From Sabulicella rubraurantiaca (GTDB taxonomy: Bacteria > Pseudomonadota > Alphaproteobacteria > Acetobacterales > Acetobacteraceae): a DNA stretch of 64,000 nucleotides. The notes below the pieces were generated by a model. The model searched no databases. It was not told the origin of the DNA and saw only the letters and a program-made list of their open reading frames with translations. Each line of letters opens with the position of its first letter. The stretch's first letter is position 1. The position numbers were made by a program, and so were the translations under genes. Below, in pieces: positions 40,024 through 56,145 of this stretch. The DNA lies in assembly GCF_017355885.1 (NCBI RefSeq), contig NZ_JAFEUU010000002.1, positions 310,001 through 374,000 of the forward strand. Direction: 5' to 3'.

Positions 40024-40245
40024 TCAGGGCGCGAGGCCGTGCCGCTCGCGCTCTCTCCTGAGCTTCCTTCGCGCGATGTTCAGATAGGCTTGCAGCGTCT
40101 CGAGTGTCAGCTTGGCGAGGTCGAAGGCCTAAGACCGGCCGTAGCCCTGCAGCATTTCCACTCTGGCCCGCTGGCGAGCGACGCGTTCCTCGGCCTCGCG
40201 GACATGCCGCCCGGCCATGGCCAAGGGCCCCTCGCGCGGGTGCAT
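40024..40245 (-). pseudogene. 73-residue helical family, copy with internal stop
   Basis: The 222-nt frame aligns codon for codon with the intact genes at 54061 and 54452: MHPREGPLAMAGRHVREAEE at the start and RRERERHGLAP at the end. Codon 39 is TAG (positions 40129-40131), so only 38 residues would be made. Everything else, including the start and length, is preserved, which points to a recent inactivation. It lies between the PEP-CTERM gene and an H-NS fragment. Confidence 0.8.
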
Positions 40246-40380
40246 GCGCGCCTCCTGCCGCCTCAACGTTCTGTTGTGGCCGTCGATGCCGGCGCATGCT
40301 GAACGCCATTACCCTAGCGGACAAGGCTGGATGGCCAATCAGTCCCTGAGGTGCGAAAGGCCGCCCTTCGCAGACAGATG

Positions 40381-40475
40381 TTTGATCAGGAAGTCGTCTT
40401 TGGCCTTACTGTCGGGCTAGGCGACCTGAAGCCATCTCGGCATGCGGCCACGGCCGCTCCAAAGCTCCCCGCCCG
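40381..40475 (-). pseudogene. H-NS-type DNA-binding domain remnant with stop codon
   Basis: The frame reads GGELWSGRGRMPRWLQVA, then TAG (40417-40419), then PDSKAKDDFLI. It aligns without gaps with the H-NS C-terminal fragment at 53055. The TAG stands where that copy has CAG (Gln). WSGRGR-x-PRWL is the AT-hook-like core of H-NS proteins. The N-terminal oligomerisation domain is absent and the natural stop is lost. Confidence 0.65.
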
Positions 40476-40533
40476 GACTAAGCAAACGGCGTCAGCCGCT
40501 CACAGCATAGCACGGTTACGCGAACAAAAATTC

Positions 40534-40549
40534 ACATGCGTACGCATGT
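40534..40549. promoter_or_regulatory. Perfect 16-bp palindrome upstream of the 40 kb receiver
   Basis: ACATGCGT-ACGCATGT, 41 bp before the receiver ATG. The surrounding leader (CACGGTTACGC, AACAAAAATT, CCCGCTTGATA) is also conserved in front of the 55 kb receiver, where the palindrome itself is degraded. Candidate operator; the binding protein is unknown. Confidence 0.5.
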
Positions 40550-40589
40550 CGCCCGCTTGATAGTCACAGACAGTGAGGGAGGCAGCACG

Positions 40590-40976
40590 ATGCCCCATGC
40601 TGGAAAGCTGACGCGGCGAAGCATCCTGGTCGTTGAGGATGAGTACCTCATCGCGCGCGACCTGGCGGAAGAGTTGGAGATGGTCGGGGCCGAGGTGCTG
40701 GGCCCGGTCGCCACGCTGAGCGCTGCGCTTCGCCTCATCGCGCGCAGTGGGTGCATCGACGCGGCCGTGCTCGACGTGAAGCTGGGGGCAGAAAGCGTCT
40801 ACCCCGTGGCCGATGCCCTCAGGCGTCGCGGCATCCCGTTTGTTTTCTGCACCGGCTACGACCGCGGCGCACTCGCCCCCGCCTTCCGCGACGCCCTTTT
40901 GTGCGAGAAGCCGAGCGAGCCCGCCGACATCATCCGGGCCCTGCAAGACCAATTCAGGTCACAGATTGCCGCCTGA
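40590..40976 (+). CDS. Stand-alone receiver-domain response regulator (40 kb copy)
   Basis: 128 residues, a receiver domain only. Glu16-Asp17 (ILVVEDEYLIARDLAEELE), Asp62 (AAVLDVKLGAES), Thr88 (FCTGYD) and Lys107 (LLCEKPSEP) are all present, so it should be phosphorylatable. GGGAGG before the ATG at 40590 decides the start. Very similar in DNA to the 55 kb copy, including leader and terminator. It converges with the KGG gene over a shared terminator. No kinase is adjacent; the HWE kinases at 22-32 kb are candidates. Confidence 0.92.
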   Translation: MPHAGKLTRRSILVVEDEYLIARDLAEELEMVGAEVLGPVATLSAALRLIARSGCIDAAVLDVKLGAESVYPVADALRRRGIPFVFCTGYDRGALAPAFRDALLCEKPSEPADIIRALQDQFRSQIAA

Positions 40977-41002
40977 GGCGGGGAGGCCTTCGCTCCCCGC
41001 CT
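40976..41002. terminator. Bidirectional terminator between receiver and KGG gene
   Basis: AGGCGGGGAG-N7-CTCCCCGCCT, a perfect 10-bp stem starting at the last base of the receiver stop codon. The same structure with a different 7-nt loop is found at 55136-55162 beside the paralogous receiver. Confidence 0.8.
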
Positions 41003-41019
41003 GTGGGTGTGTTTGTTGC

Positions 41020-41382
41020 CTAGCGGCCGCCGCGGGAGTTTTCGCCGCCCTTCCGGCCAGCCTCGCGGGCGCGCTCCGGGTCATCGGCGAAGTTGCCGCC
41101 GCCCCCGCCACCACCGCTGCTGCCACCGCCACCGCCGCCGCCATGGGACGCCTCGCCGCCTTTCCGGCCGGCTTCCGCCGCCAACTCCCGGTCCTTCGAG
41201 AATGAGCGATCCTCTGGCGCGACGGACTGCCCACCTTTCCGGCCTGCCTCGGCGGCGAGTTCAGGGTCCTTGGAGAAAGAGCGGTCTTCCGGCGCCACGT
41301 TCTTGCCGCCCTCGCGCCCCGCCTCGCTGGCACGCTTGGGATCGTCAGCGAAATTACCGCCACCACTGCCTTGTTGAGCCAT
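41020..41382 (-). CDS. KGG-repeat stress-induced protein
   Basis: A 120-residue, very hydrophilic glycine-rich protein with four repeats of the (E/A)AGR(K/E)GG motif (SEAGREGGKN, AEAGRKGGQS, AEAGRKGGEA, REAGRKGGEN). FADDP and APEDRSFSKD spacers and a polyglycine linker separate them. This is the KGG/GsiB-like family associated with general stress, desiccation and stationary phase. No membrane or signal features. It converges with the receiver gene. A remnant of its 3' end lies beside the 55 kb receiver. Confidence 0.85.
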   Translation of the reverse strand: MAQQGSGGGNFADDPKRASEAGREGGKNVAPEDRSFSKDPELAAEAGRKGGQSVAPEDRSFSKDRELAAEAGRKGGEASHGGGGGGGSSGGGGGGGNFADDPERAREAGRKGGENSRGGR

Positions 41383-41792
41383 GTGAGTGGAGGTGACGGG
41401 GGCGCGCGCTGTTCCATCGTGGAGTTGCTGTGGCGCCCTAGCCGCTCACAACATCGCATTCACCGGCTCGTGCTTCGGACAACGCATCATGCTGGGGCCA
41501 ACTAAGCTGACGGTTGCCACTTCTTCCCCCTTGAGGATCTAAGCACCGGCGCTGACGGCGGCCGCCACTCTTCGCCTGGTGGATAGGCGCCTTGGCTGCT
41601 TCAACTCTTCACGCTTGCGGCGTAAGCGGCGCGCGGCGCGGCGCCCTATCGATGGCAGCGAGACGGAGGCAGTGCGCTTATCGCACCGTGTCCGGAGCAG
41701 GCATCTCGAGGGCGTGTAACAAAACTTGGCGCCTCCCGCCCGGCGAGACGCGGTAGCGTGCAATCTGCCGGGGCCAACACGGGAGACAGCTC
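41383..41792. other. Intergenic region, no gene supported
   Basis: 410 bp between the divergent KGG and NTF2-like genes, expected to hold both promoters. A basic minus-strand frame at 41539-41763 has no ribosome-binding site. I see no strong palindrome or known operator. Confidence 0.4.
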
Positions 41793-42221
41793 ATGCTCCG
41801 ACGTGCTCTCGCCCTGGCGGTCCCCGCCGGGATCATAGCCCACGGCACGAAGGCGAGTGCCCAGGTGGGCGACCGACAGGCCATCGATGCCCTCATGGAG
41901 CGTTTCGCCGAAGCCTACAACCGCAAGGACGCCGACGCGATTGCTGCCCTTTTTACGGAAGACGGCATCCTCAGCGGCCCGGCGCCGATCCTCATCGGCA
42001 GGCCGGCGATCGCGCAGAACTACAAGGGGCGACTTGAACAGGGCTTTGGAAATATCCGCTTTCAGTTCCAGCACTATGCCCCGGACGGCGCCTGGGCCGC
42101 AGGTGGCTATATGGTCCGCCTCCCCCAAGGGACTGAGCGACAAGGCAACGTCACCAGCATCTTCCAGCGCCAAGGCGATACACTGCTGATCCGCGTCCAT
42201 ACGTTCAACTTCCACGGGTAA
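41793..42221 (+). CDS. Exported NTF2-like (SnoaL/DUF4440) protein
   Basis: A 142-residue protein. MLRRALALAVPAGIIAHGTK with ASAQ forms a signal peptide. The mature part is a cone-shaped NTF2-like fold (AIDALMERFAEAYNRKDADA, LFTEDGILSGP, and FQFQHYAPDGAWAAGGYMVR). GGGAGAC precedes the ATG. The family includes small-molecule binding proteins and isomerases, and no substrate can be inferred. It may be co-expressed with the following outer-membrane-like gene. Confidence 0.78.
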   Translation: MLRRALALAVPAGIIAHGTKASAQVGDRQAIDALMERFAEAYNRKDADAIAALFTEDGILSGPAPILIGRPAIAQNYKGRLEQGFGNIRFQFQHYAPDGAWAAGGYMVRLPQGTERQGNVTSIFQRQGDTLLIRVHTFNFHG

Positions 42222-42399
42222 GATCGACGCTGAGCGCTCAACGGATTTCAACTGGCTAGCGGCAGCTGGCTTGACGATGACTGGCCCGAAACCACTCTCG
42301 TGCCCTCTGATTACAGGCCTTCAATCTGTCGCGTATCTTGCCCTTCGCCTCAATCCAGCGATCCATTACGACAGATCGCTGCTGGATAAGGATGATGCG

Positions 42400-43272
42400 A
42401 TGCCAGACGGAGCACGCCCGTCGCTCTTCCGTTGTCTGATGGGACTGGTCTTGGTGGCAGCACCTGCGGCAGCACAAGAAGGCGCAGGCGCGGAGGCCGA
42501 GCAGCTTGTTCTCGCGGCCGACCCCTTCGAAACCACGGACCCCCTCGCTGCGAAGCCGGGGGAAGCGGAACTGGCGTTCATTGGAATTTACGAACGCGCA
42601 CGCCAGGGGGCGTATCGCGACACAGGAGCGGTCGCGACTGAAATTCAACTTGGCGTGGCCCCCAGGCTTGAAATCCGCTTCGGGCAGTTGGGCGCCTACG
42701 GCAATCTTCAAACGCGGGGGCGGCCCGCCACTTCCGGCGCTACAGGAACGGATCCCTCCCAAGGCAATGGCGCAGGACCAGCCTGGGGTGGATCAACGCG
42801 TCTTGGGTTCCTGTACCAGATCACGGAGGAGCGGGGTGCGGTTCCCGTCATCTCGCTGCTCGGCCGCGTGCTCTCGGTCTATGGCCCAGGCACGCCCAGC
42901 CACGAAGGCGAGGTGGCTGCACTTTTTGGCAAAACGCTTGGCTCCGGCGCCCGGGCTGTGGGTCTTAACCTCAACCTCGGCTGGACCACCCGCTTTGCTC
43001 CCCTACCTGGTGAGCGGCCGAACCAGTATTCCTTCACCGCGGCCGTTGGCACGGGCGTCTCGCGCGACACGGTCGTTGTGCTCTCTCATGCGCGGCGGCA
43101 GCAGGAACGCGGCGAACGTGACTTCAGTCTCGTCGAAGTAGGCGTCCGCCATCGTTTTGCCGACGACTGGCCCATTCTGGGTTTCGCCATAGGCGCTGGG
43201 ACCACGCGGGATACGCCGGCCCTGCTGGTGAGCTTCGCCGCACAATGGTCCTTCGGGGCGGGAGCGAGGTAA
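42400..43272 (+). CDS. Outer-membrane beta-barrel-like exported protein
   Basis: About 290 residues from the ATG at 42400. The open frame reaches 42271, but only this start gives a signal peptide (LFRCLMGLVLVAAPAAAQEG). The mature protein has alternating beta strands such as GVAPRLEIRFGQLGAYGN, GARAVGLNLNLGWTTRFA and DFSLVEVGVRHRF, and ends with aromatic-containing SFAAQWSF. This resembles the MetA-pathway/phenol-degradation transporter-like barrels. Function unknown. Confidence 0.72.
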   Translation: MPDGARPSLFRCLMGLVLVAAPAAAQEGAGAEAEQLVLAADPFETTDPLAAKPGEAELAFIGIYERARQGAYRDTGAVATEIQLGVAPRLEIRFGQLGAYGNLQTRGRPATSGATGTDPSQGNGAGPAWGGSTRLGFLYQITEERGAVPVISLLGRVLSVYGPGTPSHEGEVAALFGKTLGSGARAVGLNLNLGWTTRFAPLPGERPNQYSFTAAVGTGVSRDTVVVLSHARRQQERGERDFSLVEVGVRHRFADDWPILGFAIGAGTTRDTPALLVSFAAQWSFGAGAR

Positions 43273-43404
43273 AGCCTGCGCTCTTCTACGCTCTACCAAG
43301 CAAGCTGCTGGAGCAGCGCCGCCCCTTGGCGTAGCGAAAAGTCTGCAAAAACCTCTGCTGACGCAGGTGGCTTGGCTACGGTTGATACCTGACTGTTTCG
43401 CTGT

Positions 43405-44325
43405 CTATCGGAACGATACTGGCATCATTTCCGCATCTCTGCCGGTCCCATGGAGCGCGGCAGCGAAGAACTCAGCCGCCTGTGCCGCCGAGAGTTCCGC
43501 CAACTCCGGGCACGAATGCGCCGGCACCGTGCCGCTTTCGCGCGGCCACGGTTGGGCGGTGGCTGGGCTCCCGCCGGACTGGGGAAGGTCCCAGGCATAG
43601 GTCGCGCCCTCGTAGGAAATGCGCCGCACTGACTCCGTCGGCCCGAAAGCTGCGGCCAGAGCGCCACAGGCGGTGGGCGGGTTGGCCGGGTCGTCCCCGC
43701 CGTGCAGGATCAGGACGGGTGATGGCGTGGCCCTACTTGCCTGCGGCGCGGAGAGCAGTTCGGCCAAGCTCGCGCATCCCGGGTAGAGCAGCAGGCGGGC
43801 GGCGAAGGACCGGTGGCCGTCATCCCACGCCGGCGCGAGCGCCACCGCGCGGGCGCCGATGCCGAACCCAAGCCCGCCGATGCGCGTCGGGTTCACCCGG
43901 GGGTCGCGCGTGAGCACCGCCACGGTGCGCGTCACGAGTTCGGCCGCTTCAGACTCTCCGGGGAGCGGCTCTGGTGCGCCATCGAGCGGATTGGCGCGGA
44001 GTTCGACCTCAAGGACAGCAATCCCGGCCGCATTGAGCCGCGCGATGTAACTCCGGCTGCGCCTGTCCAGCCCAAGCGTGTCGTGGACGATCAGCACCGC
44101 AGGCGGCGCAGGCGTGCCTTCCATGGGGAGGTACAGGAGCCCTGTGACGCCATCCGGGCCGTGGAATACTTCGGACGAGGCAGTCTGCGCGAGCGGCGAG
44201 AGGGTGAGGACGACCGAGACAGCGCAAGCAGCGATGGCGCAGCGGAGCCAGGACGTAGGGTGTGCCGATGGCGCCTCTTCCTGCGCAAGGGCAGGAGGTA
44301 GCACGTGGCTGGCTTGGGTGTTCAT
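43405..44325 (-). CDS. Dienelactone hydrolase-like protein lacking catalytic residues
   Basis: A 306-residue protein starting MNTQASHVLPPALAQEEAPS, with a hydrophobic segment near residues 30-50 that may be a signal anchor. The alpha/beta hydrolase domain has the DLH landmarks PAVLIVHDTLGLDRRS and VLILHGGDDPANPP. The nucleophile elbow reads IGGLGFGIGARA, with Gly where DLH has Cys or Ser. The position of the catalytic His reads GATYAW rather than GxxHAF. Only the Asp region is kept. It is therefore probably not a hydrolase. It is divergent from a LysR gene. Confidence 0.75.
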   Translation of the reverse strand: MNTQASHVLPPALAQEEAPSAHPTSWLRCAIAACAVSVVLTLSPLAQTASSEVFHGPDGVTGLLYLPMEGTPAPPAVLIVHDTLGLDRRSRSYIARLNAAGIAVLEVELRANPLDGAPEPLPGESEAAELVTRTVAVLTRDPRVNPTRIGGLGFGIGARAVALAPAWDDGHRSFAARLLLYPGCASLAELLSAPQASRATPSPVLILHGGDDPANPPTACGALAAAFGPTESVRRISYEGATYAWDLPQSGGSPATAQPWPRESGTVPAHSCPELAELSAAQAAEFFAAALHGTGRDAEMMPVSFR

Positions 44326-44639
44326 CGTGGCCCCTGAGCCTCTTGAAAACCCAGCCATTTGGGGCGAGTGCCATGCCACGGCGCAAAGCATGATTTCTCA
44401 GGGAAGCCTTAGAAATTCTCATGAAGTCGGCTCTAGGCGCTTCGACCTTGAATCAGCGCGCACAAGCCCGAACGTTGCGTGAGCCCAGGGGGGCGCTGAA
44501 GCTTGAGGTGCTGGCCTCGGGCGCACCAGCCACGGCTCATCGCTGGCCTTTAGTGCCCAAAGACAGAGCTTTTTATCCGCCTGATCGCGATCTAGACTCG
44601 GCTCGCTGCTTCATCAGATTTTCTCATGAGTGCCAGGAC
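44326..44639. other. Divergent promoter region
   Basis: 314 bp between the DLH-like gene and the LysR gene, where LysR regulators usually bind. Frames here are shadows. I see no clear T-N11-A palindrome by eye. Confidence 0.35.
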
Positions 44640-45569
44640 ATGCTGCGTCGCCTGCCGCCGCTGAACGCCATCCGGGCCTTCGAGGCCGCCGCGCGGAGCG
44701 AGAGCTTCACGCGGGCGGCTGAGGAACTCTGCGTGACGCCCGGGGCGGTCAGTCACCAGGTCAAGGCGTTGGAGCAGAGCCTTGGTGTCCGGTTGTTCCT
44801 GCGCGAACGCCAGCGGCTGTCCTTGACGGAGGCGGGCCGCGAGTACCTCGCGGTCACCCGCGACGCGCTGGACCGGATCGCGCTCGGCACGGCTCGTCTC
44901 GTGCAGCGTCAGACGTCCGGTATCCTGACGGTCAGCACCTCGCCGGACTTCGCCGCGAAGTGGCTCGTCAATCGGCTCGGACGCTTCGCCGAGACCCACC
45001 CAGAGATCGATCTCCGCGTGTCGGCATCGGCGCATCACGTCGACCTCTCACGGGGCGAGGTCGATCTCGCGGTCCGCCATGGGGACGGCAACTGGCCGGG
45101 TCTTCACGTTGTGCGCTTGTGCTCGGAGCGGCTGTTTCCTGTCTGCAGTCCAAAGCTCTTCTCCGGGCGGAAGCGCATCACCACCCCGTCTGATCTCCTT
45201 CGTCTCCCACTGCTGCGCCTTGAGGATGAAAGGACCTGGGCGAGGTGGTTCTCAGCTGCGGGCGTGCGGGAGCCCGTGCCCCGCGGCCCGGTGTTGAACC
45301 AGGCGAGCATGCTGATCGACGCCGCGGTGGATGGGCAGGGTGTGGCGCTGGCCCGGACGGCTCTTGTGGCGTGGGACCTCATCCAGGGCCGCCTGGTGCG
45401 ACCGGTGGATGTTTCGTTGCCGATGGCGAACACGTACTGGGTCGTCTGCCCATCCGCAGTTGCGGACGTGCCGAGGATCGCGACCTTCCGCGACTGGCTC
45501 CTCGCCGAGGCGAAGGAGGACATGGGCCGCCTGCGGCAGCGCGGGATGGCGGGCGAGCGACGAGCGTAA
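44640..45569 (+). CDS. GcvA-type LysR transcriptional regulator
   Basis: A 309-residue regulator. LPPLNAIRAFEAAARSESFT and VTPGAVSHQVKALEQSLGVR form the winged helix, typical of the GcvA/AmpR branch. The effector domain has GILTVSTSPDFAAKWLVNRL and DLAVRHGDGNWPGLHVVRL. ATG 44640 (MLRRLPPLNAIRAF) is the family start; the longer frame to 44421 is not supported. It probably controls the divergent DLH-like gene. Its ligand is unknown. Confidence 0.88.
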   Translation: MLRRLPPLNAIRAFEAAARSESFTRAAEELCVTPGAVSHQVKALEQSLGVRLFLRERQRLSLTEAGREYLAVTRDALDRIALGTARLVQRQTSGILTVSTSPDFAAKWLVNRLGRFAETHPEIDLRVSASAHHVDLSRGEVDLAVRHGDGNWPGLHVVRLCSERLFPVCSPKLFSGRKRITTPSDLLRLPLLRLEDERTWARWFSAAGVREPVPRGPVLNQASMLIDAAVDGQGVALARTALVAWDLIQGRLVRPVDVSLPMANTYWVVCPSAVADVPRIATFRDWLLAEAKEDMGRLRQRGMAGERRA

Positions 45570-45685
45570 TCCTGCCACCCTCCTTCTGATCTGCTTGCGG
45601 TTCTCTGGTGTGCTCAGCGCGCCCTACTGCCGCAAAGGCAAGCCCAACAGCCAGAGCAACCTCAGGAACAGGTGCTGACCAGCCC

Positions 45686-46726
45686 TTAACGCCCGCGTCG
45701 GGGAGCAGCAAAGTACCGATGCAGGTCATTGAAGATCGCCGCGCCGCGCGTGAGTCGCTCCTCGTCATCCTCAGTCGCCGCGCAAAGGCCCGCGATTAGC
45801 GTCCGAACCCCATCTGCCTCAGGGCGGCCGAACTTGCCGTCTTTGAGGTCAATATCGTGCACGATCTCGGCCACCGCAGCGAGGGCGTGGTCGCCCTCCA
45901 GGTCGGCCCGACGCATCAGCACCTCGAAGGTGCAACGGTCTCCTTCGTGGGTGATCTCGGCCTCGGCCATGTCAAAGCGGATCTCGCCACGGACCGATGC
46001 GGCCGACTTGCCCCGCACGAAACGGAACCGCGCCGAAGGGTCAATGAAGCGTCGCACGAGCCAGGCTGAGGCGATGCGGTCCACGTGAACTCCAGCGCGC
46101 GTCACCCAGACCTTCCCCTTCAGCGCTGCGGCACCAGAGGCTCCCTCTGGTGCAACTGCCTTGGAGGGTGTGCCAGTTATGTCCGCCATTCGCTGGCCAA
46201 GCTCGCGAAGGAGGCTTTCCGCCGCTTGGCGGCCGTGTGCGCCGAAGAAGTCGATTGTCACGGCCTGTTCGAACCTTGACCGGAGGCGGGTGAGCCTCGT
46301 GCGCAACTCGCTTGTCGCACCGGCGCCAGACCTGTCCGCCTCGTCGAGGTCCGCGGCAAGCGTGCGGGCCTCCTCGGCCAGCGTCTCGTAATCGGCGTCC
46401 CTGGCCCGATCGAAGAGGGCGCGGACCTCGGCATCCGTCATGCCGTCGACCAAGCGCGCCTCACAGACCAGCGGCTCGCCTCCGGCCTCGGCGATCTCTT
46501 TCGCGAGCCAGCCGAAATCCTCCTGCGCCTCCGCCGTCAAGGGCAGCGCATAGGCCGCGTTCTTCAGGGCCACGGCGCCGAGCGCTTGCAGCCGCCGCCA
46601 GACCTTCACGCGGAGGTAGGCCGGCTTGGATGGCAGTTGGAAGACGAGCAGCAGCCAGCGTGCCTCGCCCCCGGCTTCGGACGAGGCCCTATCGGAGCTG
46701 GCCTGCTGCTCTGCTGTCCTGCTCAT
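45686..46726 (-). CDS. chrB: Chromate resistance protein ChrB
   Basis: A 346-residue protein. The N-terminal domain (ARWLLLVFQLPSKPAYLRVK, WRRLQALGAVALKNAAYALP) is the ChrB helix-turn-helix-like part. The C-terminal domain (GVHVDRIASAWLVRRFIDPS, FVRGKSAASVRGEIRFDM, GDRCTFEVLMRR) is the chromate-resistance exported/ChrB domain. ChrB proteins act as chromate-responsive regulators. It overlaps the upstream MFS gene by ATGA. The domain recurs alone in the plus-strand gene at 49097. Confidence 0.9.
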   Translation of the reverse strand: MSRTAEQQASSDRASSEAGGEARWLLLVFQLPSKPAYLRVKVWRRLQALGAVALKNAAYALPLTAEAQEDFGWLAKEIAEAGGEPLVCEARLVDGMTDAEVRALFDRARDADYETLAEEARTLAADLDEADRSGAGATSELRTRLTRLRSRFEQAVTIDFFGAHGRQAAESLLRELGQRMADITGTPSKAVAPEGASGAAALKGKVWVTRAGVHVDRIASAWLVRRFIDPSARFRFVRGKSAASVRGEIRFDMAEAEITHEGDRCTFEVLMRRADLEGDHALAAVAEIVHDIDLKDGKFGRPEADGVRTLIAGLCAATEDDEERLTRGAAIFNDLHRYFAAPRRGR

Positions 46727-47967
46727 CGGCCGCCAGCATCGCGCAGTCCGCCCTGGGGCGCACGCCGTGCCACCTCCTCCGGCGGCCGAACCTGGGAGAA
46801 AGCCTGGAGCAGCAGGAGGTCATAGGTGATCTTGAGTGCCCCAGCGAAGATCAGCGGCCAACCAAAGGGGCTGAGCCCCATCAGCCAGCCGGAGATCAGC
46901 GGCGAGAGGGCTGCGGCAAAACCGCGAGGCACGGCAGTGATGCTCGCCGCAGCCGGCCGCTCATGCGGTTCGACAACCGCCATGACGTAGGAGGAGCGGG
47001 TCGGCACGTCCATCTGAGACAGCAGAGCGCGCAAGACCAGCAGACCGAATGTGACAGTCGCATCTGGTGCGAAAGCGACGAGGATGAGGAACACGCTTGA
47101 TGGCAGATGGGTGAAGACCATCGTGTTCACCAGCCCGAAGCGTGCCGCCAAGGGGACGGCGGCGAAGTAGGACACGGCCGAGCAGAGGCTCGTCACGAAG
47201 AAGATCGTGCCGACGGCTGCCACGTCGAGCCCGAACCGCTCGGATAGCCAGAGCGCGAGCAGCGAGTTCACCACAAACCCGCCCCCGAAGCTGTCGAGCG
47301 AGAACAGTGCGGCAAGGCCATAGACCCGCCGACGCGACGGGCCGAGCGGTGCCGGCGGCGCGTCTCCCGGTGCCTCGGCGCGCGGCGACAGGCTGCGGTA
47401 GAGCGCGAAGCTTGCGAGCCCGAGGCCGCCGTAGAGCAGGAACAGCGCGTCGGCGATGGTGCGCGCCGAGGCGATCGACCCCAGCCAGTCCACGGCGCCG
47501 GCCGCGAGCGCGCCTAGGGCGCCGACCATCGAACCCACGAAGCTGTAGCGGGCGAACGCAGCAGTGCGCCGCTCCGCCGGCACCGACTGCGTCAGCACCG
47601 TGTGCTCCAGGGGAAGGAAAACGCCCACATCGCCCCCGGTCGGGCTGAGAGTGCCGACGAAGGCGATCAGCAGCAGCGGCCAGAAGCTGTCGAGAACGCC
47701 GAAAGCGAAGCCGCTCGCGGCCATCAGCAGGCTGGCTGCCAGCAGCGCGGGGCGGCGTCGGATGCGGTGGCCAACCGCGCCAAGCCCCAAAGCCAGGAGT
47801 GACGAGCCGAGCAGGGTGGCTGTCGAGATCGCTCCCACGGCCAGCGCGTCAAATCCAAGGCTGGACAGGTGAACAGGAAGGAGGATGGCAACGTAGCCAT
47901 CACCGAAGGCGCGCAATCCCCGCGCGAGCAGAATGCGCCGCGTGTCGGCCGGATTGCCCACGCTCAT
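46723..47967 (-). CDS. MFS transporter of the chromate island
   Basis: A 414-residue twelve-helix major facilitator starting MSVGNPADTRRILLARGLRA. Conserved blocks include GDGYVAILLPVHLSSLGFD, ADALFLLYGGLGLASFALY and QMDVPTRSSYVMAVVEPHER. MFS genes next to chrB are common in chromate operons; the substrate is not known. First gene of a leftward pair with chrB, divergent from the sod-rhodanese gene across 155 bp. Confidence 0.88.
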   Translation of the reverse strand: MSVGNPADTRRILLARGLRAFGDGYVAILLPVHLSSLGFDALAVGAISTATLLGSSLLALGLGAVGHRIRRRPALLAASLLMAASGFAFGVLDSFWPLLLIAFVGTLSPTGGDVGVFLPLEHTVLTQSVPAERRTAAFARYSFVGSMVGALGALAAGAVDWLGSIASARTIADALFLLYGGLGLASFALYRSLSPRAEAPGDAPPAPLGPSRRRVYGLAALFSLDSFGGGFVVNSLLALWLSERFGLDVAAVGTIFFVTSLCSAVSYFAAVPLAARFGLVNTMVFTHLPSSVFLILVAFAPDATVTFGLLVLRALLSQMDVPTRSSYVMAVVEPHERPAAASITAVPRGFAAALSPLISGWLMGLSPFGWPLIFAGALKITYDLLLLQAFSQVRPPEEVARRAPQGGLRDAGGR

Positions 47968-48122
47968 GTGGGAGCACTCATCTCCAAGCCCTCCTCATCG
48001 GCACATCCCAATTTGTGAGGAAGTCGTATCATGAAAGAGGGAAAATGCAACACTTGTATCTCATACCGGATCTGGCGTAGCGTTGGAACGCCAGCCAGCG
48101 AACCCCACAAGGAGTCGCCCGA

Positions 48123-49100: not shown

Positions 49101-49582
49101 CGAAATGGGTCACCCGCGAGCGTCCGAAGATCGACCGCATTGCCTGCCCCTGGCTGATCCGGCGCTTCGTCGAGGCCGACGCCGAGTTCCTCTATGTGCC
49201 GACCGACCGTGTCTTCGCGGCGGCAAGGGAAACCGGCGCGATCCCCTATGACATCCCCGGTGCAGAGCCATTCGCGCATGACGGCGAACTCTGCTCCTTT
49301 GACGCCATCATCAAGCATTATGAGCTGAAGGACCCCGCCCTGCGGCGGCTGGCCCTGATCGTGCGGGGCGCTGACACCGCCCGGCATGATCTGGCGCCGG
49401 AGGCCTCCGGCCTGCATGCCATCTCAATGGGACTGTCTGCGAATATTCCGGACGACCATGCGATGCTGGAGCAGGGCATGGTGATCTACGACGCGCTTTA
49501 CGCCTGGTGCCAATCCGAGAAGCCAGAGATCCATAACTGGACGCCGACGAGCCGCGTCGTGTCGCCGGAGGCCGCATCTTGA
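49097..49582 (+). CDS. ChrB C-terminal domain protein
   Basis: A 161-residue protein starting MTKWVTRERPKIDRIACPWL at 49097; ATGA overlap with the previous stop supports this start over the longer frame. It consists only of the chromate-resistance domain shared with the C-terminal half of ChrB (IACPWLIRRFVEADAEFLYV, HDGELCSFDAIIKHY, LHAISMGLSANIPDDHAML). It lacks the N-terminal regulatory half. Its job is unknown; coupling to chrA suggests a role in transport or sensing. Confidence 0.87.
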   Translation: MTKWVTRERPKIDRIACPWLIRRFVEADAEFLYVPTDRVFAAARETGAIPYDIPGAEPFAHDGELCSFDAIIKHYELKDPALRRLALIVRGADTARHDLAPEASGLHAISMGLSANIPDDHAMLEQGMVIYDALYAWCQSEKPEIHNWTPTSRVVSPEAAS

Positions 49583-50964
49583 ACGGCACTTCCACTGAAG
49601 CTGCCGCGACGGCGGCGGCCCGTTCGGCGGCAGCTGAGGCGACGGCCCGCATGCCATCCTTTGGTGAGGCCTTCAAAGTCTGGCTGAAGGTCGGGCTGCT
49701 CTCCTTTGGTGGCCCGGCGGGGCAGATCGCCCTGCTGCACCGCGAGGTCGTGGACGACCGCAACTGGGTCTCGGACGCGCGCTTCCTGCATGCGCTGAAC
49801 TTCTGCGCCTTGCTGCCGGGACCGGAGGCGCAGCAGCTTGCCACCTATCTTGGCTGGCTCATGCACGGGGTGCGCGGCGGCGTCGCCGCCGGGGCGCTGT
49901 TCGTCGTGCCGGGCGTGGTGGTGATGCTTGGCCTCACACTCCTTTATGTCACCTTTGGCGAGGTGCCCGCCGTCGCGGCGCTGTTCTTCGGCCTGAAATG
50001 TGCGGTGCTCGTTCTGGTGGTCGAGGCATTGCTGCGCGTGGCGCGGCGCGCGCTCAAGACGAACGAAGCCTGGGCCCTCGCAGCTACGGCCTTTCTGGCC
50101 CTTTACCTCTTCGGCGTGCCGTTCCCGATCGTCGTCCTGACCGCCGCCGTCATCGGCTACTTCGCGCCAGGCGCCTTCAAGGCAGGGGCCCACGGCTCCG
50201 CAAAGGACGGTCCACCCGCGGTGCTTGATGCGGTTCTGGCGGCGGACCCAGAACGGCCGGCTCGATTTGCGGCGAAGGCCTGGCGCGCCGGCTGGATTGC
50301 TGTCGCGCTCTGGCTGGTCCCCGTCGCGGTGCTGATGCTCATCGTCGGTGGCGTCTTCGCGGATGTTGCTTGGTTCTTCTCGAAGATGGCCGTGGTCACG
50401 GTGGGAGGCGCTTATGCCGTGCTCGCCTATGTCGCCCAGGAGGCCGTCCAAAGCTATGGCTGGCTCACGCCAGAGCAGATGCTGGTGGGCCTCGGTCTCG
50501 CTGAGACTACGCCTGGGCCGCTAATCCTGGTCCTGCAGTTTGTTGGCTTTCTTGCCGGCTATGGTGCGGGGGGTCTTGTCTGGGGCGTCTTGGCCTCTCT
50601 TCTGACGGTCTGGGTCACCTTCGCGCCCTGCTTTGCCTTCATCTTTCTGGGTGCCCCCTACGTCGAGAGACTGCATTCGAACCGGGAACTGACAGGCGCC
50701 CTGGCGGCGGTGACGGCGGCGGTGGTCGGGGTCATTGCCAACCTCGCGCTCTGGTTCGGCCTACGCGTGCTGTTCGCCGATGTGGGGCGTTGGGAGATTG
50801 GGCCGCTAGGCCTCGATGTCCCCAGGCTCAGCTCGTTGGATCCGGTCGCCCTTGCGCTCGCCGCGCTCGCTGCCGTCTGCTTGTTCTGGCTGAGGCTTGG
50901 CCTGCTGCGCACCCTCGGTATCACGGCCGCCGTTGGGCTGGTGGCGAAGCTCGTTCTGGGATGA
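49579..50964 (+). CDS. chrA: Chromate efflux transporter ChrA
   Basis: A 461-residue long-chain CHR transporter with two homologous halves. Each half carries the conserved pattern: FKVWLKVGLLSFGGPAGQIA and LLPGPEAQQLATYLGW in the first, FFSKMAVVTVGGAYAVLAYV and GLAETTPGPLILVLQFVGF in the second. It exports chromate. The frame opens at TTG, which overlaps the preceding TGA. An internal ATG at 49651 (MPSFGEAFKVWLKV) with GAGGCGAC upstream is an alternative start. Main resistance gene of the island. Confidence 0.94.
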   Translation: MNGTSTEAAATAAARSAAAEATARMPSFGEAFKVWLKVGLLSFGGPAGQIALLHREVVDDRNWVSDARFLHALNFCALLPGPEAQQLATYLGWLMHGVRGGVAAGALFVVPGVVVMLGLTLLYVTFGEVPAVAALFFGLKCAVLVLVVEALLRVARRALKTNEAWALAATAFLALYLFGVPFPIVVLTAAVIGYFAPGAFKAGAHGSAKDGPPAVLDAVLAADPERPARFAAKAWRAGWIAVALWLVPVAVLMLIVGGVFADVAWFFSKMAVVTVGGAYAVLAYVAQEAVQSYGWLTPEQMLVGLGLAETTPGPLILVLQFVGFLAGYGAGGLVWGVLASLLTVWVTFAPCFAFIFLGAPYVERLHSNRELTGALAAVTAAVVGVIANLALWFGLRVLFADVGRWEIGPLGLDVPRLSSLDPVALALAALAAVCLFWLRLGLLRTLGITAAVGLVAKLVLG

Positions 50965-51170
50965 AGCTGGCATGGGCGCAGCACCGCGAGTGGCTGGCTT
51001 AAGAGTTCTGGCCCAGCTGGCAGCACCGGGGGATGGACGCCTGCTCTCGTCAGCCCCCGCAAGGTCCAAGCTCCGCCTGAACGGCAGAAGGCCGAACAGC
51101 AGGTCATGGTTTTTCTTCGTCACCATCGTGGGAGCCGACCGCCGCACCCACATTCCAGGAGGATGAAGCC

Positions 51171-52151
51171 ATGCACATTCGGACGACGCTCAGGATCGTT
51201 CTTCTGAGCCTTGTCGCGCTGATGCCGCAGGCAGGGGCGTCCGGCCAAACCCAGCCGAACGCCACTGCGCCTGCGCCCAGCGCGCCGGGCGGGGACCCGG
51301 ACTGGCGCAACACCATTGCCGAGGTGCTGGGAAAGCCCGGCACCGATATGCCCGGCGAAGTCTACCGCGTTGCGCTGCCGCGCACCGACCTGCAGGTGAC
51401 ACTCGACGGCGTGCGGCTCCTGCCGGGCTTTGCGCTCGGCTCATGGGTGGCCTTCCATGAGCATGGCGGGCAGGTCATGCTGATGGGCGACTTGGTCCTG
51501 CTGGAAAGCGAGATCGCGCCCGTGATGCGCCGCCTTGCCGAAGGCGGCGTGGAGGTGACGGCCCTGCACAATCACCTCGTCCGGGCCCAGCCAGCCACCA
51601 TGTATCTGCACGTAGCTGGCCTCGGAGAGCCAAGGCGGATCGCTGTCGTCCTTCGGACCGCAGTCCAGGAAAGCGCGACACCGCTCGAAGGTGCCGCGAG
51701 CCCGTCCGCGGAGGACAGGATGGAGGGGCTCGACACCGCCGCCTTCACCCAGGCTCTCGGCCGCGAGGGTCGTGTCGCTGGGGCCGTCTATTCCGTGTCG
51801 GTGCCGCGCGCGGAGGCGGTTCAGGAGAATGGCGCGGAGGTGCCGCCGGCCATGGGTCTCGGAACGGTGATCAACCTCCAGGCGGCCGGAAATGGCCGAG
51901 CCGCGGTCACGGGTGATTTCGTCCTGACAGCCCCCGAGGTGGTACCGGTTCAGCGGGCGCTGGTTGAGAGCGGCATCGAGGTCACCGCCATCCACAACCA
52001 CATGCTTCACGAGCAGCCCCGCTTGTTCTTCATGCACTTCTGGGGGGTGGGCGAGCCCGAGGGCTTGGCCCGCGGCCTGCGCACGGCGCTCGATCGCACG
52101 AATAGCCGCCGCACCGATGCGGCGCCTGGCCGTGATGGCGGTCGGAGGTGA
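51171..52151 (+). CDS. Exported DUF1259 protein
   Basis: A 326-residue protein with GGAGG before the ATG and signal peptide LRIVLLSLVALMPQAGASGQ. It contains two homologous DUF1259 halves, each with the signature VTA(L/I)HNH(L/M) followed by QPxxxxxHxxGxGEP: EVTALHNHLVRAQPATMYLH at about 125 and EVTAIHNHMLHEQPRLFFMH at about 260. His-rich motifs suggest metal binding. Such genes are often found in chromate islands. Role unknown. Confidence 0.85.
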   Translation: MHIRTTLRIVLLSLVALMPQAGASGQTQPNATAPAPSAPGGDPDWRNTIAEVLGKPGTDMPGEVYRVALPRTDLQVTLDGVRLLPGFALGSWVAFHEHGGQVMLMGDLVLLESEIAPVMRRLAEGGVEVTALHNHLVRAQPATMYLHVAGLGEPRRIAVVLRTAVQESATPLEGAASPSAEDRMEGLDTAAFTQALGREGRVAGAVYSVSVPRAEAVQENGAEVPPAMGLGTVINLQAAGNGRAAVTGDFVLTAPEVVPVQRALVESGIEVTAIHNHMLHEQPRLFFMHFWGVGEPEGLARGLRTALDRTNSRRTDAAPGRDGGRR

Positions 52152-52161
52152 GGAGGCAGCC

Positions 52162-52854
52162 ATGCGGAGTGATCAGCAATCCACGCAAGGCGCGCTTGTC
52201 GCCGCGCTTCTGATGGGCGCCATCGCCGTGGCGCTTGGATCCCGAGGCGTCGCGGCGCAGACCGCTGGGGCGACGGTGCCGCACACCTTCGAAGATATGC
52301 CCGCAGGCACTCCGCCGCCTGGCTTCACCTTCGCGCTCACGGGCCGGGGTCGGTCCGTGCGGTGGGTGGTGCTTGAGGACCGGTCGTCGCCAGCCGGTCC
52401 GGCCGTGCTCGCCGAGACAAGCGGCGATCGGACGAGCGACCGCTTTCCGCTGGCGATTCTGGACGGCTTCGAGGCGCGCGACGTGGCCGTATCGGTGCGG
52501 TTCAGGCCGGTTTCCGGCACCATCGACCAAGCGGCAGGGCTGGTGGTGCGGCTTCGTGACCCGCGCAACTACTACATTGCCCGTGCCAACGCGCTGGAGA
52601 ACAACGTGCGCCTTTATCGCGTCGTGGACGGGCGGCGGACCCAGTTTGCGGGCGTCGATGTTCCGGTGCCCCGTGACCGATGGCAGACGCTGGGGCTCCG
52701 TGTCGAGGGCGACCGGTTGGTAGTTTCGCTCGACGGACGCGAGCTGTTTGCTGTGACAGACCGAACCTTCCGCGAGGCTGGCCGGGTGGGGCTGTGGACA
52801 AAGGCGGACAGCGTCACCCATTTCGATGACTTCCGCGTGGAGCTGGTGCGGTAG
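52162..52854 (+). CDS. Exported LamG/concanavalin-like protein
   Basis: A 230-residue protein. The start at 52162 follows GAGGAGG and begins MRSDQQSTQGALVAALLMGA, a signal peptide ending VAAQ. The mature part is a beta-sandwich like DUF1080/LamG domains: FPLAILDGFEARDVAVSVRF, AAGLVVRLRDPRNYYIARAN, LGLRVEGDRLVVSLDGRELF and GLWTKADSVTHFDDFRVE. It binds polysaccharide or acts structurally in known relatives. Ten nt after the DUF1259 gene, so the two form a unit at the end of the chromate island. Confidence 0.78.
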   Translation: MRSDQQSTQGALVAALLMGAIAVALGSRGVAAQTAGATVPHTFEDMPAGTPPPGFTFALTGRGRSVRWVVLEDRSSPAGPAVLAETSGDRTSDRFPLAILDGFEARDVAVSVRFRPVSGTIDQAAGLVVRLRDPRNYYIARANALENNVRLYRVVDGRRTQFAGVDVPVPRDRWQTLGLRVEGDRLVVSLDGRELFAVTDRTFREAGRVGLWTKADSVTHFDDFRVELVR

Positions 52855-53054
52855 CGGCACGCAGTGACTTTGGAAGAGGGCGTGGCAGCGCATCAGGGAG
52901 CGACTCTTGTGCGCGGCGTCGGCGACGTGGGCTCCACCGTTGCACACACGCTGTTTCTCGCAGGTGTCGCCGTTGGCCTCCATGACGGGCCAGCCCCGGC
53001 TGCCGTTCCAGGCGATTAGCCGAAGCGTGGCGCAGAGCAAGCCTGAGACTCATG

Positions 53055-53288
53055 TTATCCGATTAGAAATTCGTCCCTGGACTTGCCGCATGCCTGGTCG
53101 GCCTGCAGCCACCTAGGCATGCGGCCATGGCCGCTCCAAAGCTCCCTGTTCGGTCCACGGTATTCCGGTGCAGGGCTCTCGCGTTCACCCTTCCGCGCCG
53201 ACTTTCCTCGGCTGCGCCCGGTCGGCTGGGTTGGACTCACCGAGAACTCAAACAGCGTTAGCTCGTAGCGCCCTTGTTCGCGATCCAT
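53055..53288 (-). CDS. Short H-NS C-terminal domain protein, probable fragment
   Basis: A 77-residue frame whose last 45 residues are the H-NS DNA-binding domain: PAPEYRGPNRELWSGHGRMP, then RWLQADQACGKSRDEFLIG. The usual N-terminal dimerisation helices are absent; residues 1-30 are low quality. It may be a translated mini-protein or a remnant. It is paralogous to the broken fragment at 40381. Placed at the edge of the chromate island and the helical-family block. The stretch 52855-53054 before it holds no gene. Confidence 0.5.
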   Translation of the reverse strand: MDREQGRYELTLFEFSVSPTQPTGRSRGKSARKGERESPAPEYRGPNRELWSGHGRMPRWLQADQACGKSRDEFLIG

Positions 53289-54060
53289 GCGCCCGAGTAG
53301 ATGGCGAGCGAGGGGTAATGGCTGCTATCGCCGAGGCGGACAGCCCGATATTCCGGCTATCGTGCTGGACTGCCGTCCGCGCTTCTGCCCTCCTGCTCCT
53401 GCCCAAGAGTGGCTGCGGCGCGACCCCATGGATGGTAGCGACACATTCTCCTGCGGCGCCGAGAGGATCCTGCGCCAGCGTGGGCTATGCCCCTCAGAAG
53501 CGGCGATGCCAGCGCGTGTAACGGGCGACGACTTCGGGGCGGACCCGGCGATACCACGAGCGGAACCAGCCATGGTGGACGATCAGCATTGAGACGAGCG
53601 CATCTGATTGGAAGTGAAGGCACCACGCCTCCTTGGTCGACGGCTCGTACAATTTGGGTCAGGTGACGGTCGAGTTGGCAGTAATGCGTACGGTCCGATC
53701 AGGCGCCGGGCCGCCTCAGGCCACGGCAGGCCTGAGAAGCCCCCCCAGCTCGGGCGCGATCGCTTGGCTTCGGCCGGTTCGACATGATCGCCCGTCGCTG
53801 AGATCCAACAGCAGAGTACTGGCGGAAGTATTCTTGGGCATAAAAATGGAGCCCTGTCGCCTGAGTGGATTAAAGGGCCTCAAAAAAGACTAACCGGCAG
53901 ACTTGGAAATAGCGCAGTCACAAAAATATCACGCGATACTGCTCCGGAGTGGGAGAAGAGAAAATATCAGCTGCCAAGCAGTGTCCGGCTCCTTTGCTGA
54001 ATGTTGGTGTACTTGCGGTGGCCCCCTTGGCGCTCCGCGCATTCATGCCCAGGAAAGCGG
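53289..54060. other. Long region without a supported gene
   Basis: 772 bp of mixed base composition. A minus-strand frame ending at 53494 (HHGWFRSWYRRVRPEVVARY and a basic end) looks partly protein-like but has only a TTG start and no ribosome-binding site; it may be a fragment. From about 53860 the GC content drops (e.g. AAAAATATCACGCGATACTG), which may hold the promoter of the next gene. Confidence 0.4.
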
Positions 54061-54282
54061 ATGAGCTTTATGGAGGACCCGATCGCTCAGGCAGAGCGCC
54101 TTGTTCGAGAGGCGGAGGAGCGGGTCGCACAAGGGCGAGCCTTGGTGGAGCGGCTAGAGCGGGACGGGCATCCTGACTTGGCCCACACAGCGCGGGAATT
54201 GCTGGCGATCCATGAAACGAGACTGGCACTCCGGCGCGAACACCTGCGGATCGAGCGCAAGTGGCATGGCTTTGATCCCTGA
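54061..54282 (+). CDS. 73-residue helical family, copy A (intact)
   Basis: A 73-residue protein starting MSFMEDPIAQAERLVREAEE and ending IERKWHGFDP. It is fully charged and helical, without Cys, signal or membrane segment; heptad spacing suggests one or two coiled coils broken near residues 36-42 (DGHPDL). AGGAAAG lies before the ATG; a second ATG at 54070 is possible. It aligns without gaps with copies at 54452, 40024 and 54757 and with the first 70 residues of the receiver fusion at 27323. No function is known to me; small alphaproteobacterial proteins of this kind are annotated only as hypothetical. Confidence 0.8.
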   Translation: MSFMEDPIAQAERLVREAEERVAQGRALVERLERDGHPDLAHTARELLAIHETRLALRREHLRIERKWHGFDP

Positions 54283-54451
54283 AACGACGAAGCCCCGTCG
54301 ATGGCTGGGGGCTTCTCGAAACCTTAGGAAGGTAAGGGTAGGACCGGCCTCGGCCCGAGGCGTCCTCAGGGACTTGCATCCCCAGCACCGATCTTCCTGG
54401 CGGAGGAACAAGGATGAGAGAAATAACGCCTCCCGCACGAGAAGTTCGTTT
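54283..54451 (-). ncRNA. Candidate structured RNA, copy 2
   Basis: Inverted paralogue of 38470-38636. On this strand it starts right after the stop of copy B and ends in the terminator hairpin GAAGCCCC/GGGGGCTTC (54289-54315), which also closes the convergent copy A. P1 (GAGGCGT with ACGCCTC) and the P3 loop TGCAAG are unchanged. P4 differs in sequence but still pairs. P2 is weaker. Here it looks like a 3' UTR of copy B, whereas copy 1 has no such gene upstream, so an independent RNA or a 3'-end-derived small RNA are both possible. Confidence 0.48.
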
Positions 54452-54673
54452 TTAGGGTTCGAGGCCGTGCCGCTCGCGCTCAATACGAAGGTGGCCGCGC
54501 ATCAGCTCCAAGGTCGATAGCAGGACCTGCAGCGTGCTCCTGCCAATCTCAGCGGCCTTGGGGTGGTTATCCCGCTCCATCTCCTCGATGATGGCGCGCT
54601 GGCGGGCCACGCGCTCTTCGCCCTCTCGGACGTGGCGTTCCGCCATGGCTAAAGCGTCTTCATGCGGGTCCAT
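54452..54673 (-). CDS. 73-residue helical family, copy B (intact)
   Basis: 73 residues, MDPHEDALAMAERHVREGEE at the start and LRIERERHGLEP at the end; ACGGAGG before the ATG at 54673 decides the start (the frame is open to 54700). Same length as copy A, to which it is convergent. The core differs (EEMERDNHPKAAEIG) while both ends are conserved, suggesting the ends carry the function or contact surface. The candidate RNA element follows directly. Confidence 0.82.
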   Translation of the reverse strand: MDPHEDALAMAERHVREGEERVARQRAIIEEMERDNHPKAAEIGRSTLQVLLSTLELMRGHLRIERERHGLEP

Positions 54674-54756
54674 GGATGCCTCCGTAGACGAGACCGGCAC
54701 TCTCTCACAGAAGATGCCGCCGGTCCCGCTCTCACTGGAGGTGCCACTTTCCCACC

Positions 54757-54979
54757 TCAGGGTTCGAGACCATGCCGTTCGCGCTCTCTCCTAAGGTTCC
54801 TTTGCGCAATGCTCGGACAGGTCTGCCTTGTCTCAAGCGTCAATTCGGCGAGATCGAAGGCCTCGGACCGGCCGTAGCTCCGCAACATTTCCACTCTGGC
54901 CCCCCTGGCGCGCGACGCGTTCCTCGGCGTCGCGGGCATGCCGCTCGGCCATGGCCAAGGGTCCCTCGCGCGGCAGCAT
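54757..54979 (-). pseudogene. 73-residue helical family, copy C (frameshifted)
   Basis: Starts MLPREGPLAMAERHARDAEE and, after a shift, ends RRERERHGLEP. The total length is 223 nt, one more than the intact genes. A run of six G at about 54905-54910 replaces the shorter run of the 40 kb copy, so a single inserted G explains the break. Its DNA is closer to the 40 kb pseudogene than to copies A and B. It lies between copy B and the KGG remnant. Confidence 0.78.
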
Positions 54980-55070
54980 ACGCGCCTCCGTCAGCAACAA
55001 CGGCCTTTCGCGGCAGGAGAAGCCCGCAAGTGCACCTCGCGGGATCGCCTTCCTCACCTTTCGCGCCGCA

Positions 55071-55118
55071 TCGAAGGCCGGCCGGAAGGATGGCGAAGAC
55101 GCCCACGGCGGCCGCTAG
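55071..55118 (+). pseudogene. 3' remnant of a KGG stress-protein gene
   Basis: The last 15 codons read ASKAGRKDGEDAHGGR then TAG, matching AREAGRKGGENSRGGR of the intact gene at 41020. The preceding sequence is unrelated, so a rearrangement breakpoint lies near 55070. Same position relative to the receiver and its terminator as in the 41 kb locus. Confidence 0.7.
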
Positions 55119-55135
55119 GCAACAAACACACCGAT

Positions 55136-55162
55136 AGGCGGGGAGTAAGGGTCTCCCCGCCT
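55136..55162. terminator. Bidirectional terminator beside the 55 kb receiver
   Basis: AGGCGGGGAG-N7-CTCCCCGCCT, a perfect 10-bp stem touching the receiver stop codon. Paralogue of 40976-41002. Confidence 0.78.
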
Positions 55163-55548
55163 CAGGCGGCAAGCTGTGACTCAAGCTGGTCTTGCAGGGC
55201 CCGGATGACGTCAGCGGGCTCGCTCGGCTTCTCGCACAAGAGGGCGTCGCGGAAGGCGGGGGCGAGTGCGCCGCGGTCGTAGCCGGTGCAGAAGACAAGC
55301 GGTATGCCGCGACGCCTGAGGGTATCGGCCACGGGGTAGACGCTTTCTGCCCCCAGCTTCACGTCGAGCACGGCTGCGTCGATGTGCTCACTGCGTGCGA
55401 TGAGTTGCTGCGCAGCGTGCAGCGTGGCGACTGGACCCAGCACCTCGGCCCCAACCATCTCCAGCTCTTCCGCCATGTCACGCGCGATGAGGTACTCATC
55501 CTCGACGACCAGGATGGTTCGCTGCGTCAGCCTTCCAACATTGCACAT
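55162..55548 (-). CDS. Stand-alone receiver-domain response regulator (55 kb copy)
   Basis: 128 residues, MCNVGRLTQRTILVVEDEYL at the start; GGGAGGTG before the ATG decides it. Glu16-Asp17, Asp62 (AAVLDVKLGAES), Thr88 (FCTGYD) and Lys107 (LLCEKPSEP) are intact. It differs from the 40 kb copy at few positions, mostly in residues 1-12, 45-56 and at the C-terminus. The leader of about 120 bp is conserved too. Inverted duplicate; both copies seem functional. Confidence 0.92.
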   Translation of the reverse strand: MCNVGRLTQRTILVVEDEYLIARDMAEELEMVGAEVLGPVATLHAAQQLIARSEHIDAAVLDVKLGAESVYPVADTLRRRGIPLVFCTGYDRGALAPAFRDALLCEKPSEPADVIRALQDQLESQLAA

Positions 55549-55819
55549 AGTTGCACCTCCCTGACTGCCTGCGATTATCAAGCGGGTTGCATGCCTGCGC
55601 GTGTTAATTTTTGTTAGCGCAACCGTGCCATGCAGTGGGCGGGTACCATGCAGTGGACGGTTGACGCCGTTTTCCTGAGGGCTTCCTAACGTGGCCTTCT
55701 GTCGCTTCGCGCACCATCCTGGCTGGCGAGGTCGAAGCCGCTGAAGGGTCCTGAAGCCATGAAACTTGCGACGGCACCTGCTGCGGTATCAGGGCGTTGT
55801 TGCGCGGGAGGAGGCGCCT

Positions 55820-56145
55820 ATGGGGCCGCTTGAGCACCGCTTGGCAGTGGCCGAGCAACACATCCGGGAAGCTGAAGAACGGGTCATGCTCCAGCGCGCG
55901 AGAGTGGAGCGGAGCGGCTTGTCCGCGAAGCAGAGCACAGGGTGATGCGGAAGCGTGCCCTCATTGCCCGCCTGGAGCGCAGCGAAACCCCCGACGCCGC
56001 CTTGGCGGCACGAGAGGCTCTGAAGGTGTTTCACCGGACCTTGGAACTGACGCGCGAACATCTGCGCCTTGAACGCCAACGCCACGGTCGCGGCCGCTCA
56101 AAGGTAGAAGCCCCCGTCGAGAGGGCGAGGGCTTCGGTCTTTTAG
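55820..56145 (+). pseudogene. 73-residue helical family, copy D (partial tandem duplication)
   Basis: GGGAGGAGG and ATG at 55820 start MGPLEHRLAVAEQHIREAEE, but the frame stops at 55943-55945 after 41 residues. In another frame from about 55908 the family starts again (AERLVREAEHRVMRKRALIA) and runs on to EHLRLERQRHGRGR, then continues through the normal stop position to 56145. So about 60 bp of the 5' part is duplicated out of frame and the original stop is lost. The second part could still be translated from GTG or ATG at 55942-55947. The gap 55549-55819 before it holds no other gene. Confidence 0.65.
56107..56142 (+). terminator. Intrinsic terminator after copy D
   Basis: GAAGCCC pairs with GGGCTTC (56107-56135) and is followed by GGTCTTTT. 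Sequence type (GAAGCCCC/GGGGCTTC) resembles the terminators at 54289 and 38600. Confidence 0.7.

Follow-up and report, generated by a model that had tools for sequence, protein, structure and literature searches.

An uncatalogued, multi-copy family of predicted helical-hairpin proteins in Sabulicella rubraurantiaca and its possible link to HWE-kinase signaling

Two described systems are close to the genes considered here. The Bacillus subtilis antikinase Sda docks on the DHp domain of the kinase KinA and blocks kinase signaling, according to passages of two papers (PMC7430163; PMC9430884). Passages of a third paper (PMC5964349) characterize the FATGUY single-domain response regulators, among them MrrA, SdrG, and Sma0114, by the motif PFXFATG(G/Y) and describe them as promiscuous hubs of phosphorylation, with a specificity that is not understood. 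Here, we analyze a 64,000-nt stretch of Sabulicella rubraurantiaca (the window; positions 310001 to 374000 of contig C24 in a 5.0-Mb draft assembly) in which six loci, copies A to F, encode one family of proteins of ~73 residues. The products are predicted to be helical hairpins, and the protein may be an undescribed helper of two-component signaling. Our favored explanation, to which we give somewhat less than an even chance, is that the family spreads on mobile elements, undergoes birth-and-death turnover, and acts on the alphaproteobacterial network of HWE kinases and FATGUY response regulators as an adaptor or modulator. There is good support for the family itself, for its decay, and for its mobility; the signaling role, which rests on gene fusions and gene neighborhoods, we place a little below one half.

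Both Sda and this protein are small helical hairpins. Sda, however, is a 46-residue protein whose target is KinA, and the hairpin of the new family is a prediction: an AlphaFold2 model of the monomer, built from a 32-row alignment, has helices at residues 7 to 34 and 38 to 68 (mean predicted local distance difference test score, 94.2; predicted template modeling score, 0.80), and the predicted fold is an antiparallel two-helix hairpin. An earlier note on this DNA had raised the idea of a dimeric coiled coil; its helical character is reproduced, but what was modeled is a monomer, and the model is a hairpin. Conservation reaches 90% only at R13, E19, L48, and L55. Because His 14 is replaced by Leu in copy A and in the copy on contig C63, a role for this residue in phosphotransfer is unlikely, and we rejected an HPt or DHp phosphotransfer domain, which needs an invariant phospho-accepting His. 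Among 36 family members, no Sda-type match was found in Pfam at an expect value (E) of ≤0.01, although Pfam presumably holds a model for Sda; on sequence, nothing makes the hairpin family a member of the Sda family. Homology to the anti-sigma factor NepR, for which we assume a model among the searched families, likewise gave no match in Pfam or NCBIfam among the 36 members. The FATGUY regulators are proposed partners and not the hairpin itself. Those in the window have close variants of the motif (Table 1), as do two beside the Rhizobium hairpin genes (PFVFTTGY and PYVFATGY); all five neighboring regulators depart from PFXFATG(G/Y) at one or two positions.

The similarity among the copies is, as judged by profile and DNA comparison, homology. 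A family profile made 60 matches at E ≤ 0.01 in a six-frame translation of 0.92 million residues and none at E ≤ 10 after that set had been shuffled or reversed; since related queries had retrieved most of those loci or been built from them, this control informs on composition and not on sensitivity. At the DNA level, identity is 82.5% over 246 nt between copies C and D and 78.7% over 202 nt between copy B and the copy on contig C9. The earlier note had assigned five of the loci and the N terminus of the fusion at 27323 to the same protein, and these results bear it out. Low-complexity coiled-coil composition, which it had named as one way the assignment might fail, was rejected, as both controls were empty and the profile did not match the 272-residue coiled-coil gene of the window.

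The copies are in different states (Table 1). The 222-nt length reported for intact and nonsense copies is seen in A, B, and C, and the internal stop and the inserted G noted before are those of C and D. Copy E, previously read as an out-of-frame tandem duplication, instead joins two diverged units: aligned as DNA, its two parts score 15 (maximum of 300 shuffles, 17), and as proteins they score 56, below the score of either part with most other copies. We therefore rejected a recent tandem duplication; an old duplication is compatible with the scores. The 5' part scores highest with copies C (90) and B (86) and the 3' part with copy A (164), a Roseococcus copy (159), and copy B (158), a spread that leaves the exact parentage unsure. 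By eye, Shine-Dalgarno-like sequences precede all six window copies (AGGAAAG for A and GGAGG for B).

Judging from the searches made, the hairpin genes form an uncatalogued family. Pfam gave only a weak match to DUF892 for 1 of the 36 members (E = 0.0011) and, for copy A, only DUF5667 (E = 0.075). In NCBIfam, SecE was matched at 0.13 and a chlamydial Inc model at 0.0092, the latter by a single member of the 36. Seven members searched against PHROGs produced two matches, at 0.056 and 0.088, from one member each, and the prophage copy had no PHROGs family. None of 32 members matched a PADLOC model at E ≤ 0.01, nothing among PDB sequences fell below E = 0.27, fold searches against PDB and viral models yielded no match at E ≤ 0.001, and literature searches found no title on this hairpin family. 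The membership in a characterized family that the earlier note had foreseen as a possible refutation was thus not found.

The family extends well beyond the 16 kb in which the copies had been thought to cluster. A protein search of the whole genome found 16 match places on nine contigs; these amount to 14 copies by our reading, as D and E account for two places apiece. Six have intact frames: A, B, F, and the copies on contigs C9, C5, and C63. The other eight are broken or truncated, namely, C, D, E, and copies on contigs C25 (stop), C37 (3' end unmatched), C21 (stop and 5' part unmatched), and C11 and C2 (both with the 5' part unmatched and the frame open). Matches at E ≤ 1e-4 occur in 13 of 200 genomes of the same taxonomic family, this genome included; G036 has seven places, G091 six, and G051 five, and the three other genomes of the same genus among those shown have none at this threshold. 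Single copies in G121 and in G036 also hold an internal TAG, which, with only 6 of the 14 copies intact, supports the repeated gain and loss proposed for this gene. Class-wide, 2 of 289 genomes match at E ≤ 1e-5, this genome and one with a partial match. A scan of named genomes found 16 loci, including ones in Belnapia, Paracraurococcus, Pseudoroseomonas, Siccirubricoccus, Roseococcus, and an uncultured Rhodopila. Ten plasmid records, from Rhizobium, Sinorhizobium, Skermanella, Microvirga, and Methylobacterium, match at E ≤ 1; nine were fetched, and all nine match the family profile at 1.2e-11 or better.

Two fusions tie the hairpin to both sides of two-component signaling. In copy F, it is followed by a receiver-like domain in which the D, T, and K sites are present (read by eye); this domain scores 19.6 bits against Pfam Response_reg, and the regulators at 40536 and 55162 score 25.7 and 26.7 bits, all below the cut-off of 30.2. 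Copy F and the 40536 regulator also match PhyR-type and PRK13435 models of NCBIfam below the cut-off. In G121, a short linker joins another copy to the C terminus of an HWE kinase, the whole forming a single open frame. Neighborhoods point the same way. On three Rhizobium plasmids (CB3060, CB3090, and NXC24), the small gene comes first, followed in turn by a FATGUY-type response regulator, a second such regulator on the opposite strand, and an HWE kinase, and in CB3060 it overlaps the next FATGUY-type gene by ATGA. In Methylobacterium currus, the small gene has a response regulator on one side and, on the other, a PAS kinase with a match to the HWE region. Six of the nine plasmid loci, taken with 4- to 5-kb flanks, have a response regulator or HWE match within 5 kb (the Microvirga regulator match is weak). 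CheB adjoins the small gene in G143, G108, and G064, and in G108 the opposite flank holds a hybrid kinase; other neighbors are a PAS protein (G051), a Crp-type regulator (G064), and a GGDEF/EAL protein (G003). Of the 11 copy clusters in the S. rubraurantiaca genome, 6 have an HWE kinase or a window-type response regulator no more than 5 kb away; such regions cover 5.8% of the genome (binomial P = 1.4e-5; 19 of 22 HWE places used). The regulator segment 40496 to 41063 recurs inverted at 55075 to 55642 with 88% identity; with the duplicated segment left out, the count is 5 of 10 clusters (P = 1.3e-4). Further copies of the regulator, 83 to 95% identical, are on contigs C30, C14, and C15.

Table 1. 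Copies of the hairpin gene and associated features in the window
Feature	Coordinates	Strand	Remarks
Copy A	54061..54282	+	222 nt; intact open reading frame of 73 residues; second in-frame ATG at 54070
Copy B	54452..54673	-	222 nt; intact open reading frame of 73 residues; same direction as copy D and response regulator
Copy C	40024..40245	-	222 nt; TAG at codon 39
Copy D	54757..54979	-	223 nt; one G inserted after about codon 25, causing a frameshift
Copy E	55820..56145	+	Two diverged family units joined; frame broken
Copy F	27323..28153	+	Family hairpin is the N terminus of an open 276-residue frame; receiver-like domain fused
FATGUY-like single-domain response regulator	40536..40976	+	PFVFCTGY; divergent from copy C; Pfam score below cut-off
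Paralogous response regulator	55162..55581	-	PLVFCTGY; on the strand of D and B, upstream of both; Pfam score below cut-off
Further FATGUY-like response regulator	24227..24592	-	PILFATGY; 64% identical to the 40536 regulator
GAF/multi-PAS HWE histidine kinase	28184..32458	-	1,424 residues; convergent with copy F; HWE_HK 60 bits (cut-off, 22.8)
169-nt element	38467-38635	+	Predicted hairpins; terminator-like end
165-nt copy of the element	54282..54446	-	Convergent with copy A; terminator-like hairpin at the end

Several results weigh against a signaling role as part of this explanation. In G051, which has five copies, neither an HWE kinase (E ≤ 0.001) nor a similar regulator (E ≤ 1e-10) was found, so a signaling partnership cannot be obligate, and G091 has six places with three HWE kinases and one similar regulator. 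Across 12 relatives, a count by eye puts at least 5 of 27 copy clusters no more than 5 kb from an HWE kinase or similar regulator. Many copies have neighbors unrelated to signaling by two-component systems: phage tail genes, an aminotransferase beside the contig C9 copy, a TctC receptor and a RecD-like helicase beside the contig C63 copy, a patatin (G003), CBS proteins and an iron permease (G036), RelA/SpoT (G075), and a ligase-like protein (L073). The strict form of an EcfG-type promoter consensus is absent upstream of 70 entries (61 family matches and 9 other genes or copies), and a loose form of that consensus precedes 2 of the 70. Finally, pairs that include a broken copy also have low ratios of nonsynonymous to synonymous substitution (dN/dS, 0.16 to 0.72), so the ratio reports past constraint. 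No sigma-70-like promoter was found in 53900 to 56300, and several small open reading frames that adjoin copies had no Pfam match.

Further observations concern the surroundings of the window copies. A gene at 41020 to 41382 (minus strand), which we take to encode a KGG-repeat stress-type protein, is convergent with the response regulator and is repeated along with it on contig C30, where the KGG-type gene lies at 2285 to 2629 of L100. A 93-nt direct repeat (40384 to 40476 and 53061 to 53153; 76% identity) lies near both copy clusters, and the downstream flanks of copy C and the contig C37 copy have 862 nt in common at 87%. Genes similar to that at 38983 to 39816, whose product presumably has a PEP-CTERM-like end, adjoin small-gene copies in L021, L022, and L019, the last without a Pfam family. 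The coiled-coil gene at 37220 to 38038 (plus strand) also has no Pfam family; open reading frames similar to it near small-gene copies in L019, L022, and L066 may reflect composition only.

The alternative that survives best starts from the mobile context. A phage moron has its own promoter and terminator and is expressed from the prophage. The hairpin gene shares with morons the form of a lone gene inserted on the opposite strand between phage tail genes: at a Pseudoroseomonas locus and two Siccirubricoccus loci, it lies 62 to 86 nt from tail-J-like and tail-spike-like genes, with tape-measure and distal tail genes further out (L067 was scanned; L069 and L070 are called from their matching gene order and, for L069, one scanned protein). 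The difference is that most copies found lie elsewhere. The three tail modules also hold an esterase/polyhydroxybutyrate-depolymerase-like gene near the tail spike, and two Siccirubricoccus contigs carry a near-identical gene set. Two viral contigs of ~44.5 kb carry the small gene, with 100% and 90% identity to that of Siccirubricoccus; given these identities and a shared genome number, both probably represent the same Siccirubricoccus prophages. ParA-like genes lie 0.3 to 4.6 kb from three copies (two called by Pfam and one by similarity to those), an integrase gene lies 32 nt from the Paracraurococcus copy, and a DDE transposase lies 15 nt from the truncated contig C2 copy. The earlier view that mobile-element features are lacking is thus uncontradicted in the window, where not every neighbor was scanned, but does not hold for the family.

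This context, and the patchy spread across relatives, would also fit phage or plasmid cargo with a role in phage-host or element-element conflict, its signaling neighbors reflecting accessory regions rich in both. Against this stand the two independent fusions to two-component domains and the gene pair overlapping with a response regulator, as well as the empty PADLOC search, the lack of a convincing PHROGs family, and the absence of any match when 50,697 phage records were searched with one Belnapia member. We consider cargo of this kind rather unlikely, though a serious contender.

That most of the copies are neutral remnants left by segmental duplication in an accessory region, without a maintained role, appears improbable. 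More than half are decayed, and neighboring genes and an RNA-like element were duplicated too; yet dN/dS lies well below 1 between intact copies of the genome (0.17 to 0.55 in seven pairs tried) and across genera, and the Shine-Dalgarno-like sequences seen by eye precede even the broken window copies. Over all 22 pairs compared, dN/dS is 0.16 to 0.72 in 21, many of them with dS near or above 1, and the remaining pair has saturated dS; the highest value, for C versus D, comes from 26 codons of two broken copies. The dosage or diversifying selection that the earlier note had proposed as the driver of gain and loss seems more improbable still. High copy numbers in three relatives would fit it, as would the clustering of the S. 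rubraurantiaca copies on the family tree (5 changes; mean with shuffled labels, 10.9; 0 of 500 shuffles as low), which a lineage-specific expansion would produce. No pair has a dN/dS above 1, however, and diversifying selection is unsupported, with the proviso that selection on individual sites may escape pairwise averages. The tree, of 73 columns, is mostly unresolved, with 3 of 48 branches starred; weak forks (support, 81 to 90) join copy C with the contig C5 and C37 copies, copy A with the 3' part of E and a Roseococcus copy, and copy F with rhizobial and other divergent members. The starred branches force only one change, so the copies of this genome could have a single origin.

The duplicated element in the window has three full copies in the genome, two in the window and one on contig C9 (84 to 89% identical to the 38467 copy), and one partial copy; that on C9 is convergent with the small gene there. 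It is possibly an RNA gene. It has no Rfam family, only tRNA having reached the gathering score in 36000 to 57000, and at E ≤ 1e-5 it occurs in this genome only (1 of 200 family genomes), with a weak match in Roseococcus L074 (E = 4e-4). A hairpin that, like ROP/ROM of ColE1, binds RNA and acts on neighboring structured RNAs such as this element is very improbable: the shared helical hairpin, a best Foldseek match in PDB to a lengthened ROP variant (template modeling score, 0.84), and the convergence of the element on two copies speak for it, but the fold match is not significant (E = 1.5), so that any two-helix hairpin might match and kinship with ROP is not indicated, and the element occurs, at E ≤ 1e-5, in one genome only.

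We therefore return to a mobile accessory gene linked to HWE/FATGUY signaling, whose birth and death likely accounts for the copies in S. rubraurantiaca. Such genes would spread via phages, plasmids, and segmental duplication; constraint would be kept up in some lineages, and redundant copies would be left to decay. Docked on a kinase core or a receiver, the hairpin would change phosphotransfer, the binding, the direction of the effect, and the partner all being conjectural; it may act on a kinase the way that Sda does. A bolder version, which we regard as unlikely, is that phage and plasmid hairpins of Acetobacteraceae and rhizobia plug into the HWE/FATGUY hub of the host and have been repeatedly domesticated, by fusion to kinases and receivers and by the keeping of several copies, as a mobile add-on layer of two-component signaling. 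Should the signaling link fail, there remains an uncatalogued family of multi-copy accessory genes whose decay is well documented. If the link is true, the hairpin, joined to or paired with the kinase on one side and the receiver on the other, would be a direct candidate for a factor that gates these hubs or gives them specificity, and the family would be an example of signaling modulators that move on phages.

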